From positions 1-64,000 of the forward strand of contig CACOAO010000001.1 of NCBI GenBank assembly GCA_902625215.1: 64,000 nt of DNA, written 5' to 3'. Source of the stretch: an uncultured SAR116 cluster alpha proteobacterium. GTDB taxonomy: Bacteria > Pseudomonadota > Alphaproteobacteria > Puniceispirillales > Marisalimonadaceae. Both the position numbers and the translations under genes were made by a program. Shown piece by piece: positions 6,751 to 49,963 of the stretch. The notes beneath the pieces are model-generated. The model had not been told where the DNA came from and searched no databases. It saw nothing but the letters and a program-made list of their open reading frames with translations. Numbering within the stretch: the stretch's first letter is position 1; each line of letters starts with the position of its first letter.

Positions 6751-7558
6751 TAATTTATCTAAATCTGTTTTAATCATTGCAGGTTCTGATCCCAGTGGAG
6801 GAGCTGGAATTCAAGCTGATTTAAAAACTCTTACATCTCTTGGTGTCTACGGTATGACAGCGATAACTGCACTTACAGAACAAAACACCAGAGGTGTATC
6901 AGGAATATTTGAGATTCCTCTAGATTTTGTTGTAAAGCAGATTAATTGTTGTTTGTCTGATATTGGGGCAAATGCAATAAAAATTGGAATGATGCATAAT
7001 GCAGGTTTGATAGATGGGGTATATAAAGCACTCAAAAATAATGAGATAATAGGTAATGATAAAATAAAAATAGTTCTTGATCCAGTAATGGTTGCTAAAG
7101 GAGGACACAGATTACTCCAGGAAGAGGCTATATATTCATTAAAAAATTTTATAAAAATGACTAATCCTGTGTTAACACCAAATATTCCTGAGGCTGAAAT
7201 ATTGACAGGAATAAAAATTAATAATTTGTCCGATATGAAAACTGCTGGAGAAAAAATGATTGATTTGGGTGCTAATTTTGTTGTTTTAAAGGGTGGACAT
7301 ATGAATAAACCAACCATGTCGGATTTATTAATTGGTAAAGAAATTTTTTACCAAATAGACACAAAAAAAATAGAAACTAATAACACTCATGGTACAGGTT
7401 GTACAATGGCTTCAGCACTGGCAGCTGGACTAGCTAAATCTCTTAATATTAAAGTAGCTTTCCAAAAAGCACATTTTTATGTAAATCAAGCTATAATAAC
7501 ATCACCAAAATTTGGTAATGGACACGGTCCAATAAATCATTCCTTTAATATTAATTAA
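6731..7558 (+). CDS. thiD: Hydroxymethylpyrimidine/phosphomethylpyrimidine kinase ThiD
   Basis: Phosphorylates HMP and HMP-P to HMP-PP for thiamine diphosphate synthesis. It is a ribokinase-fold protein: the substrate-binding segment GSDPSGGAGIQAD is at residues 18-30 and the anion-hole motif NTHGTGC ends in Cys224. The start is one of two adjacent ATGs (6731 or 6734) inside the end of glmM, a 20-base overlap that implies translational coupling. The 3' end overlaps the convergent GST-like gene by 8 bases. No other thiamine gene or TPP riboswitch is visible nearby, so whether it serves synthesis or HMP salvage cannot be told here. Confidence 0.95.
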   Translation: MMTRRVSNLSKSVLIIAGSDPSGGAGIQADLKTLTSLGVYGMTAITALTEQNTRGVSGIFEIPLDFVVKQINCCLSDIGANAIKIGMMHNAGLIDGVYKALKNNEIIGNDKIKIVLDPVMVAKGGHRLLQEEAIYSLKNFIKMTNPVLTPNIPEAEILTGIKINNLSDMKTAGEKMIDLGANFVVLKGGHMNKPTMSDLLIGKEIFYQIDTKKIETNNTHGTGCTMASALAAGLAKSLNIKVAFQKAHFYVNQAIITSPKFGNGHGPINHSFNIN

Positions 7559-8216
7559 TTTGTTTATTAGCTATTTTAAGAAGATTTTTATACCACTTAT
7601 ATACAGGGTCTTCATTATCTAATAAATTGCACGAACTACAAACATTTACCCATTTAAAATTTCCAAAAAAAATACAATCCTCTATTCCAGGTTTCTTACC
7701 AGATATAAAACCATTATTAATTATTATTTTTCTAATTGGATCAATTGATTTTCTAAACTCTTTAATAGAGGATGAAATAAACGGTTGAAATTTAGTAATT
7801 GGCCCATTTATTCTTTCTTCTCTTGTCTTTAAATAATATTCAATATCATTTCCTTCTAAAACATTTGGTATTTCATGAGCAATAATCTTAAATAAGATTG
7901 GTAACAATTGTTTGGAAGTCCATAAATATAAAAAATATGAAAAATTTTTTGATGAATTATTTATAAAAATTTTTTTCTCAGGATAGTTATGGTCTAACCA
8001 ATTAATTATATTCCATGAATCAGTCACAAATCTATCTTTGTACTTTAATATAGGAACTAATGTTTGTTTAGAAAAAGCAATCTTATCTTTGTCAATAAAT
8101 CTTATAGGAATGGTTGTAAATTTTATATTGTTTTGAATAAGACACAACTTTATATTCCAACATGGAGGACTAAATCTTAGATCATTTTTTCCAGATAAAT
8201 CGTATAGCTCAAGCAT
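7551..8216 (-). CDS. Glutathione S-transferase-like protein
   Basis: Predicted soluble thiol transferase. Residues 1-80 look like the thioredoxin-fold GST N-terminal domain, with a SPPCWN segment at the usual active-site turn, a VPILKYKD strand containing the cis-proline, and a TDSW motif for glutathione contact. The remainder is an all-helical C-terminal domain. The SPxCW pattern resembles LigE/LigF-type beta-etherase GSTs more than plant-type enzymes, but the substrate is not known. The length of 221 residues is normal. The gene stands alone, convergent with thiD (8-base overlap) and divergent from serC. Confidence 0.75.
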   Translation of the reverse strand: MLELYDLSGKNDLRFSPPCWNIKLCLIQNNIKFTTIPIRFIDKDKIAFSKQTLVPILKYKDRFVTDSWNIINWLDHNYPEKKIFINNSSKNFSYFLYLWTSKQLLPILFKIIAHEIPNVLEGNDIEYYLKTREERINGPITKFQPFISSSIKEFRKSIDPIRKIIINNGFISGKKPGIEDCIFFGNFKWVNVCSSCNLLDNEDPVYKWYKNLLKIANKQIN

Positions 8217-8254
8217 TTGCTTTAAGGATCCTTTTATTATATTGACTTTTGAAA

Positions 8255-8320
8255 AATAACCTTTATTTAAATCGTGGGTTATTGCTTCCCAACAAGCAAT
8301 AAAATTATTATGAGGTTAAT
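8255..8320 (+). promoter_or_regulatory. serC leader RNA with alternative stems (serC-motif-like)
   Basis: Three mutually exclusive pairings are visible. Bases 8255-8261 (AATAACC) pair perfectly with 8277-8283 (GGTTATT). Bases 8279-8287 form a 9 bp hairpin with 8294-8302 around the loop CCCAAC. Bases 8255-8262 can also pair at 7 of 8 positions with 8313-8320, which contains the AGG of the ribosome-binding GAGG (8312-8315). Formation of the second hairpin would free the 5' strand to cover the ribosome site. A 'serC motif' is a known candidate regulatory RNA upstream of serC in Alphaproteobacteria; that this is the same element is inference. The ligand is unknown, and the transcription start is not resolved. 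Confidence 0.5.
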
Positions 8321-9481
8321 ATGATAAGACCGTTAGTCAAGCCAATTCGTCCAGAATTCTCTTCAGGACCTTGCGCAAAAAGACCTGGTTGGTCTTTAAA
8401 AGTATTAAAAAAAAGTTCGCTTGGTAGATCACATAGACACAAAATTTGTAAAAATAAATTAAAAGAAGTAATTGAGCTATCTAAATCTATATTAAATATT
8501 CCAAATGATTATATAGTAGGTATAGTTCCTGGATCTGATACTGGTGCCATAGAGATAGCTATGTGGAATCTTTTAGGTCCAAAACGAGTCACAATCTTAG
8601 TATGGGATAGTTTTGGAGCAGACTGGGCTAAAGATATTAAATTACAATTAAATCTTAAAGATCTTGATATTATAAAAGAAGATTATGGAAAATTACCAAA
8701 TCTAAATAGTTTGGATTTCAAAAGTGACATAATATTTAATTGGAATGGTACTACAGCAGGTGTTTGTGTTCCTAATGGAAACTGGATTAAAAATTCACAT
8801 GATAGTTTAACAATATGTGATGCAACTTCAGCAGCTTTTGCAATGGATATTGATTGGTCTAAATTAGATGTAGGTACATTTTCATGGCAAAAATCACTCG
8901 GAAGTGAAGCTGCTCATGGTATGATTGTTCTTTCTCCCAAAGCTGTTCATAGAATAAACACACATAATCCTAATTGGCCAATACCAAAATTATTTCAATT
9001 AAAAAAAAATAATGAAATAAATTTAGATATTTTCTCAGGTTCAACAATAAATACACCATCAATGATTTGTGTTGAAGATTTTTTAGATGTACTTAATTGG
9101 TCAAAAGGAATAGGCGGTTTAGATGAATTAATTAAAAGGTCAAAGGATAATTTAAATATAATTAAAGATTGGGTTTCTTCATCTACCTGGGTAGATTTTT
9201 TGTGTGAAGACCTAAAAAATTTATCAAACACATCAATATGTTTGAAACTAATAGACCCTAAACTAATAAACCAATCACTTGAAACAAAAAATATAATAGA
9301 AAAAAACATAATTAATTTGTTAGAAGAAAACAATGTAGCATTCGATATAGGGAGTTACAGATCTGCGCCTCCTGGATTAAGAATTTGGGGTGGACCTACA
9401 GTTGATAATGAGGACATAAAAAAACTATTACCTTGGTTAGACTGGGCCTATTATAAATCATTAAGTGATCTAAATATTTAA
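8321..9481 (+). CDS. serC: Phosphoserine aminotransferase SerC
   Basis: PLP enzyme that converts 3-phosphohydroxypyruvate plus glutamate to phosphoserine, the second step of serine synthesis. The PLP lysine is Lys191 within SWQKSLGSEA, and an SSGPCAKRPGW segment near the N-terminus matches the alphaproteobacterial/archaeal-type SerC. The length of 386 residues fits this longer subfamily. GAGG lies 5 bases before the ATG and is the site that the leader RNA could mask. serA follows after 21 bases, so the pair forms an operon for the first two pathway steps; serB is not in the window. Confidence 0.94.
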   Translation: MIRPLVKPIRPEFSSGPCAKRPGWSLKVLKKSSLGRSHRHKICKNKLKEVIELSKSILNIPNDYIVGIVPGSDTGAIEIAMWNLLGPKRVTILVWDSFGADWAKDIKLQLNLKDLDIIKEDYGKLPNLNSLDFKSDIIFNWNGTTAGVCVPNGNWIKNSHDSLTICDATSAAFAMDIDWSKLDVGTFSWQKSLGSEAAHGMIVLSPKAVHRINTHNPNWPIPKLFQLKKNNEINLDIFSGSTINTPSMICVEDFLDVLNWSKGIGGLDELIKRSKDNLNIIKDWVSSSTWVDFLCEDLKNLSNTSICLKLIDPKLINQSLETKNIIEKNIINLLEENNVAFDIGSYRSAPPGLRIWGGPTVDNEDIKKLLPWLDWAYYKSLSDLNI

Positions 9482-9502
9482 CTATTAATTGAGGATTTGG
9501 AA

Positions 9503-11089
9503 ATGCCAAAAGTTTTAATTAGTGATAAATTAAGTGAATCTGCTGTAGATATTTTAAAAAAAAATAAAATTGAGGTATCTTATTGTCCAGGTTTGAGTCA
9601 TGAAGAGTTATTAAAAAAAATTGATAACTATGATGGATTAGCTATTAGATCTGCTACAAAGGTCACTGAAGAAGTTTTAAAAATTGGCAAAAAATTAAAG
9701 ATTGTAGGTCGTGCTGGTATCGGAACAGATAATATCGATAAAATTGCAGCTACAAAAAATGGTGTAATTGTAATGAACACACCATACGGAAATGCTGTAA
9801 CTACAGCTGAACATGCTATAGCTCTCATGATGTCACTTGTTCGAATGATACCTCAGGCTGATAACTCTACTAAACAAGGGAAATGGGAAAAATCTAAATT
9901 TAACGGAACTGAAATAAATGGTAAATATTTAGGATTAATTGGTTGTGGAAATATTGGATCCATTGTAGCTAGTAGAGCTATAGGGTTAAAAATGAAAGTT
10001 CTAGCATATGATCCATTCCTTACACAAGAAAAAGCCTTTGAAGTAGGTGTTGAAAAAGTTGATTTGGAATATTTATTAAAGAATTCTGACATTATATCTT
10101 TACACACACCTCTTACTGATGACACTAAGAATATAATCTCATCTGAAGCAATAAGTATAATGAAAAAAGGATCAAGGATAATAAACTGTGCTAGAGGAGG
10201 TTTGGTTGACGAAGTAGCCTGCAGAGCAGCTTTAGAAACGGGACATATAGCTGGCGCAGCTTTTGATGTTTTCACTGAAGAACCTGCTAAAGAAAATATT
10301 TTATTTGACGCTCCTAATCTAATAGCTACACCACATTTAGGTGCAGCAACAATAGAAGCACAAGAGAATGTTGCTATCCAAATAGCTCAGCAAATGTCTG
10401 ATTATTTAAATACAGGAGCTGTGGTAAATGCTCTAAACTATCCAAGTGTATCAGCTGAGGAGGCACCAATTTTGAAACCTTATGTTAAGTTAGCCTATTT
10501 AATGGGATCTTTCTTAGGACAGGTTACACAAGAAGGTATATTGAGTGTTAAATTAGAGTTGGAAGGTAAAGCGTCAAATATTCAGGATGTTCCCCTAATG
10601 GCTAGTTCTCTAGTAGGTATTTTGGAACCCACATCTGCTGCGGTAAATAATATTAGCTCAGCATCAATAGCCTCCAGTAGGGGTATAAACTTATCAACGA
10701 TTAAGCATGAAAGACGGTGTGATTATGAAACTTTGCTTAAAATTTCCATTCAACATGATAAAGGTCAAAGAACAATTTCAGGCACTTTAATTGCCGGCAA
10801 CAAACCAAGAATTGTAAATATTCAAGGTATTTCAATTGAATCAGAATTCCCAAAGAATGCTCTATATTTAAGAAATTATGATAAACCAGGTTTCATAGGA
10901 GATTTAGGTAATAAACTAGGAAATAATAATATTAACATCGCATCATTTTATTTAGGACGTCGAAATGTAGGAGGAGAAGCTATTGCATTGGTAGAGATAG
11001 ACGGAAAAATTGACGAAAAAATAATATCCGAAATAAGAAATTTACCACAAGTTGCAAGAGTAAATTCAATCAATTTTGAAGGTAAATAA
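9503..11089 (+). CDS. serA: D-3-phosphoglycerate dehydrogenase SerA
   Basis: NAD-dependent first enzyme of serine synthesis. The N-terminal catalytic domain is interrupted by the Rossmann domain with GCGNIGS at residues 147-153; the catalytic Arg231 (CARGG) and His278 (TPHLGAA) are present. A middle ASB-type domain and a C-terminal ACT domain (about 455-528) make this the long form, in which ACT domains can bind serine for feedback control. GAGG at 9491-9494 is 8 bases before ATG 9503, so I prefer this start to the in-frame TTG two codons upstream. An 80-base AT-rich gap without visible structure separates it from hisZ. Confidence 0.97.
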   Translation: MPKVLISDKLSESAVDILKKNKIEVSYCPGLSHEELLKKIDNYDGLAIRSATKVTEEVLKIGKKLKIVGRAGIGTDNIDKIAATKNGVIVMNTPYGNAVTTAEHAIALMMSLVRMIPQADNSTKQGKWEKSKFNGTEINGKYLGLIGCGNIGSIVASRAIGLKMKVLAYDPFLTQEKAFEVGVEKVDLEYLLKNSDIISLHTPLTDDTKNIISSEAISIMKKGSRIINCARGGLVDEVACRAALETGHIAGAAFDVFTEEPAKENILFDAPNLIATPHLGAATIEAQENVAIQIAQQMSDYLNTGAVVNALNYPSVSAEEAPILKPYVKLAYLMGSFLGQVTQEGILSVKLELEGKASNIQDVPLMASSLVGILEPTSAAVNNISSASIASSRGINLSTIKHERRCDYETLLKISIQHDKGQRTISGTLIAGNKPRIVNIQGISIESEFPKNALYLRNYDKPGFIGDLGNKLGNNNINIASFYLGRRNVGGEAIALVEIDGKIDEKIISEIRNLPQVARVNSINFEGK

Positions 11090-49620: not shown

Positions 49621-49963
49621 TGTGTCAGAGAGCTATAAGCCGGGTTTTGTATCAAAAATTTTGATTGTAGTTATTAATCTTGAAAATTTGTTACCAAATT
49701 TTTCTAGCGACCTACCCAAGAAACTATGTAGAAATTCAAAATATGTTTCTTCTATTTGGTCTTGCTCTAGGTGGGGTTTGCCATGCCATTTTTATCGCTA
49801 AAAATGCGGTGCGCTCTTACCTCACCATTTCACCCTTACCTTAAAGGCGGTATTTTTTCTGTGGCACTTTCCCTAGGGTCACCCCTGCTGGATGTTATCC
49901 AGCACCTTATTTCTATAGAGCCCGGACTTTCCTCTTTAAAAAGCAACTACATAGCACTCTGAC
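49621..49963 (-). ncRNA. rnpB: RNase P RNA (type A)
   Basis: Catalytic RNA of RNase P, which matures tRNA 5' ends. Read on the minus strand, the conserved GAGGAAAGUCCGGGCU lies near the 5' end, GGUAAGGGUGAAA and GUAAGAGCGCACC in the middle, and ACAAAACCCGGCUUAU near the 3' end. The termini pair as helix P1 (GUCAGAG-GCUAU with AUAGCUCUCUGAC). An 8 bp A/U-rich stem capped by a GUAA tetraloop sits in the P18 region. The length is about 343 nt. Ends are set by P1 pairing and may be off by a few bases. Confidence 0.95.

Follow-up and report, generated by a model that had tools for sequence, protein, structure and literature searches.

The serC-serA leader, its promoter and a probable divergent promoter

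The window, that is the whole stretch of 64,000 nucleotides analysed here, comes from an uncultured alphaproteobacterium of the SAR116 cluster, and the named close relatives of the locus studied are likewise SAR116-cluster alphaproteobacteria. The locus comprises serC, with serA downstream, and a GST-like gene on the opposite strand that adjoins serC in 43 of 44 relatives, one copy being a pseudogene (Table 1). The only Rfam match above cut-off in the window is a bacterial RNase P RNA of class A (49621-49962, minus strand, 302.5 bits). A match to rncO at 8266-8423 on the minus strand scored 12.6 bits, where the cut-off is 43, and was dismissed as a chance hit.

Table 1. Genes and leader features at the serC locus, in window coordinates
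Feature	Position	Strand	Basis or remark
GST-like gene	7551-8216	-	Pfam GST_N_3/GST_C_7
-35 box TTGACT, serC promoter	8242-8247	+	TTGAC invariant in 44/44 relatives
Promoter spacer, 16 nt	8248-8263	+	Between -35 and -10; includes 8255-8262
-10 box TATTTA	8264-8269	+	TA invariant in 44-leader family alignment
GGG (predicted transcript 5' end; putative pseudoknot 5' strand)	8276-8278	+	179/181 leaders
Linker UUA, 3 nt	8279-8281	+	Length 3 in 171/181 leaders
P1 hairpin UUGCUU/loop CCCAAC/AAGCAA	8282-8299	+	1059/1062 standard pairs
Loop CCC (putative partner of GGG)	8288-8290	+	Near-invariant
Shine-Dalgarno GAGG	8312-8315	+	Without conserved second hairpin
Predicted divergent -10 box TAACCT	8313-8318	-	Complement of Shine-Dalgarno region; spacing 16
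serC (phosphoserine aminotransferase)	8321-9481	+	ORF, relatives
Predicted divergent -35 box TTGACT	8335-8340	-	Inside serC codons 5-7
serA	9497-11089		Downstream of serC; Pfam hits

The serC leaders of the window's family, 44 in number, aligned easily. The earlier sequence-only reading had listed two possible -35 boxes; the one at 8242 is conserved throughout the family (Table 1), while at the other, TTGCTT at 8217, TTGAC is found in none of the 44 relatives. The -10 box has the form TAwwwA in most of the family, where the GGG starts six to eight bases past it, and class-wide the TA dinucleotide is enriched 12-13 nt upstream of the GGG. In 153 of 177 leaders TTGAC begins 34-37 nt upstream of the GGG, all 177 having at least TTG nearby, and the base preceding the GGG is T or C in 176 of the 177 distinct leaders. 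On the basis of this spacing and of the pyrimidine before the GGG we place the start at the first G, and we infer that the serC mRNA begins at the GGG, about G8276, or no more than some 2 nt away from it. Promoters were reported immediately upstream of every serC motif, and the published Agrobacterium tumefaciens serC construct starts at -46 (Corbino et al., PMC1273637). In Sinorhizobium meliloti the GGG starts 46 nt before the ATG, and the A. tumefaciens construct probably contained the GGG.

This promoter bears directly on the three-way translation switch that the sequence-only reading had proposed, in which AATAACCT (8255-8262), complementary to GGGTTATT (8276-8283) and, with one mismatch, to AGGTTAAT (8313-8320), pairs with one or the other and the hairpin acts as the toggle. 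The complementarity does exist in the window: AATAACC at 8255-8261 forms seven of seven pairs with GGTTATT at 8277-8283, or eight if the G.U pair 8262-8276 is included, and the match of 8255-8262 to the ribosome-site region 8313-8320 is seven of eight as described. However, the 5' strand sits in the promoter spacer, which carries only 0.01-0.08 bit per base at the equivalent class-wide positions, and it is probably not transcribed from the conserved serC promoter. The reading had itself taken a transcript start downstream of 8262, or a lack of compensatory changes in relatives, as decisive against the switch. The start predicted from promoter spacing lies at about 8276, so that the switch fails by the reading's own yardstick, and neither pairing is conserved or covaries above shuffles. 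Among the 44 family leaders, 71.7% of cells are paired between the 5' strand and 8276-8283 and 75.0% between the 5' strand and the Shine-Dalgarno region, with one double change each, the latter value exceeding no shuffle; at fixed positions, 59% of cells are paired within the family and 40% beyond it. The masking of the ribosome site on which the switch relied is not conserved in the window's lineage either. When 8240-8325 was shuffled with its dinucleotides preserved, an 8-mer with two 7/8 partners arose in 55 of 500 sequences (11%) and a perfect 9-bp hairpin in 12 of 1000 (1.2%), so that the hairpin stands out and the three-way complementarity does not. The folding energy of 8240-8340 is unexceptional (z = -1.09). 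We regard the three-way exchange as scarcely credible.

A second promoter appears to be read in the opposite direction. Codon 6 of serC is GTC in 42 of 43 relatives and codon 7 is AAG in 44 of 44, although the usage of these codons in the gene is 12% and 18%; at all remaining conserved Val and Lys columns of serC different codons are preferred. The minus strand reads TTGACW-N16-TAAnCT in nearly all relatives, with a predicted transcript start near 8305. GTC is missing from codon 6 in just two genomes, L045, where there is no GST gene, and L022, where that gene carries seven stops. This pattern suggests that serC codons 6-7 (GTCAAG) and the Shine-Dalgarno region double as a divergent promoter, presumably serving the GST-like gene, and the conservation of AGGTTA in the Shine-Dalgarno region would be partly explained by its second role as a -10 box. 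GTCAAG was also considered as an RNA pairing partner and set aside, since GTC is lost in just those genomes that have no GST gene or only a pseudogene of it. The serC and divergent mRNAs would be complementary to each other over some 30 nt at their 5' ends, 8276-8305, a stretch that coincides with the serC RNA element.

A covarying hairpin and a putative pseudoknot

The hairpin described by the sequence-only reading as 9 bp long (8279-8287/8294-8302) is indeed perfect in the window genome, but only its inner six to seven pairs are conserved: the two outer pairs form in only 20 of 44 and 12 of 35 relatives. The conserved part is the 6-bp stem P1, which is extendable to 9 bp (8279-8302) in the window genome. 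Over 177 distinct leaders (the family leaders and further members found with the core model, together with class-wide RF00517 matches), P1 takes 64 different stem sequences and yet holds standard pairs in 1059 of 1062 cases, against a shuffle maximum of 739. Within the window's family 14 cells are changed on both sides, a number reached by none of 500 shuffles. Across families, with the window's family and family f4 combined, six of six pairs change on both sides, and a further covariation test found 72 compensatory cells. Such covariation argues that the hairpin is a real RNA structure and the core of a divergent serC leader RNA.

The same variation speaks to a reading at the level of DNA, in which the inverted repeat TTGCTT-N6-AAGCAA, placed between the divergent promoters, is an operator bound by a transcription factor. 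The repeat does lie between the transcript start of serC and the one predicted for the divergent promoter, and most members of the window's genus share the same palindromic arms. An operator would be expected to keep its arms, whereas class-wide it is the arms that vary, through those 64 stems, and the pairing and the loop that stay fixed; the element is moreover kept in L045, where there is no divergent GST gene. We consider an operator highly improbable.

A 3-bp stem is possible between the GGG and the loop CCC. Stacked on P1, and with both linkers 3 nt long, it would have the geometry of a standard H-type pseudoknot. GGG and CCC occur together in 175 of 177 leaders, the two others having GGG/CUC (a G.U pair) and AGG/CCC (a mismatch); no compensatory GGG:CCC changes were found among the 177. 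An extension of the pseudoknot by pairing the base before the GGG with a loop A was rejected, that base being T in 93 leaders but C in 82 of 177. In small riboswitches of the H-type pseudoknot kind (preQ1-I, SAM-II, SAM-V), the loop of a short hairpin pairs with a flanking strand near the ribosome site. The putative serC core fold resembles them in size and topology and is unrelated in sequence, and its loop would pair with the mRNA 5' end, not with a downstream strand containing the Shine-Dalgarno sequence.

P1 also carries a constraint beyond base pairing. The three loop-side positions of its 5' strand are pyrimidines in 176, 173 and 177 of 177 leaders, despite which C-G and U-A pairs swap freely there, and positions 2 and 3 are without pyrimidine bias. 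In the window this loop-side tract corresponds to 8285-8287. Position +4 is C in 110, U in 46 and A in 21 of the 177 leaders, and never G.

Together with GGG as the predicted first three nucleotides and a pyrimidine at -1, the absence of G at +4 recalls start-site slippage of the pyrG kind: in the Bacillus subtilis pyrG attenuator, reiterative G addition at the start drives a leader switch, as cited in PMC4448216. In the serC leader, extra Gs at the GGG would pair with the hairpin tract YYYCCC and refold the hairpin, and a G-tract could always pair with the pyrimidine half of the stem by G-C or G.U. Both leaders start with 5'-GGG and have a hairpin that contains a pyrimidine tract, a resemblance of function only, and the serC leader differs in having no terminator and no constant +4. 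With +4 variable (C, U or A), no single nucleotide would be sensed; there is no terminator-like site at the locus, and a link between serine synthesis and the nucleotide pool is not obvious. For these reasons we hold slippage control of this kind to be very unlikely. A broader proposal, to which we give somewhat more room while still doubting it, is that the serC RNA is essentially a 27-nt 5'-terminal pseudoknot independent of any Shine-Dalgarno hairpin, in which, by an unfamiliar mechanism, the initiating GGG, templated or slipped, may act as the switch by pairing with the conserved pyrimidine tract.

Relationship to the serC motif RF00517

The serC motif is an already known kind of element, an orphan riboswitch candidate (PMC7266159), and has had that status since 2005 (Corbino et al., PMC1273637). 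The sequence-only reading had placed its structure where this motif is known and taken it for a cis-acting leader RNA of serC, which our results bear out. The check by covariance model that it called for came out two ways: the Rfam model RF00517 does not score the site, whereas a core model from held-out families recovers it. RF00517 (gathering cut-off 35 bits) matched nothing in the window at gathering and nothing near the site at E <= 5, nor anything in the organism's own 2-Mb genome or the other genomes of the window's family. Within the order its matches are confined to family f4, where they reach 70 bits; in one f4 genus, g18, scores fall to 28-33 bits, and in a further family, f3, members are mostly without the second hairpin. 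The Rfam-positive f4 leaders share the anatomy of the window site (GGG, three bases, a six-bp stem and CCCAAC) with a wholly different stem.

The held-out model (R3) was built from families f3 and f4 and from the class, with no sequence from the window's family. In the window it gave the site 33.2 bits (E 1.4e-4), the next match having 9.3 bits, and in the 2-Mb genome the site was its sole match (E 0.004). A model from members with the second hairpin only still placed the site first in the window, though weakly (13.5 bits, E 0.53), so that homology draws partly on the intermediates and on position. The graded intermediates (f4, g18 and f3) and the held-out model point to common descent with RF00517 members. 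Searches with the core model covered 136 genomes of the order and 385 of the class; all matches checked lie before serC, bar one weak chance match, and the element is usually present in a single copy per genome, at serC.

The first-stem features of the serC motif are all present at 8276-8299, namely GGG, the 3-nt linker, the 6-bp stem and the CCCAAC loop. As in RF00517 leaders, the site stands directly before serC-serA with a promoter immediately upstream, and the distance from stem to Shine-Dalgarno sequence is similar. Unlike them, it has a stem of wholly different sequence and lacks the second hairpin, which in RF00517 holds the Shine-Dalgarno sequence and has a GNRA-type loop. The variant thus fails two features that define the family, the Rfam score and the second hairpin, yet appears to share its descent and its core.

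A simple scan found a second hairpin in 110 of the 177 leaders and none in 67. Among the latter are 43 of the 44 leaders from the window's family, together with most of the SAR116 relatives in f3 and a few from other lineages. The scan is crude, since the lone positive of the window's family (L012) and a few positives in f3 are without an RF00517-type tetraloop. No conserved Shine-Dalgarno mask was found in the window's family when its leaders were folded with GGG and CCC held unpaired so as to mimic the pseudoknot. Masking by coding sequence (GGUUAAU with AUUAGUC; AGGUU with AACCU) was rejected as a set of single-genome predictions no better than synonymous shuffles, masking by the real coding sequence falling below the shuffle mean in 19 of 44 cases. 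Pairing of UAAC with GUUA around the Shine-Dalgarno sequence was also discarded, being broken in several relatives. With the second hairpin absent and no substitute mask conserved, the published Shine-Dalgarno sequestration platform does not apply in the window's lineage. These comparisons suggest that the 27-nt core carries the conserved function and is what selection keeps. After the stem, ACAU occurs in 51 of the 67 leaders without a second hairpin versus 7 of the 110 with one; the window has AAAUU there, at 8302-8306.

Possible mode of action and significance

We think it more probable than not that the serC-serA leader carries a divergent serC RNA whose core, a putative pseudoknot beginning with the initial GGG, senses a metabolite or a protein and alters ribosome loading. 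The core would be the sensing part at the mRNA 5' end, and once bound it would change ribosome loading at the Shine-Dalgarno sequence, which lies about 12 nt further on. Most relatives have the second hairpin over that sequence, and there this hairpin would relay the signal of the core. The window's lineage may have lost this hairpin or never had it, and since it is missing there, control would act through the core alone, either sterically or by way of mRNA stability.

The A. tumefaciens RNA did not respond to serine, threonine, PLP or related compounds, and after these negative ligand tests Corbino et al. proposed that a protein binds it (PMC1273637). A protein acting as PyrR does on pyr leaders, in place of a metabolite aptamer, would suit a small hairpin with a near-invariant loop that usually occurs once per genome, at serC. 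A simple hairpin-binding protein, however, would not need the invariant 5'-GGG outside the hairpin, and we rate protein binding alone as a possible but less likely account.

The variant without the second hairpin marks the indispensable part of the motif, the 5'-terminal GGG and CCCAAC hairpin of the mRNA. Searches for a ligand or protein can accordingly work with an RNA cut down to about 27-32 nt, provided that it keeps its native 5' end, and the one-sided pyrimidine tract is an added constraint on any mechanism proposed. The range of the serC motif thereby comes to include marine SAR116 lineages for which the Rfam model gives no match.
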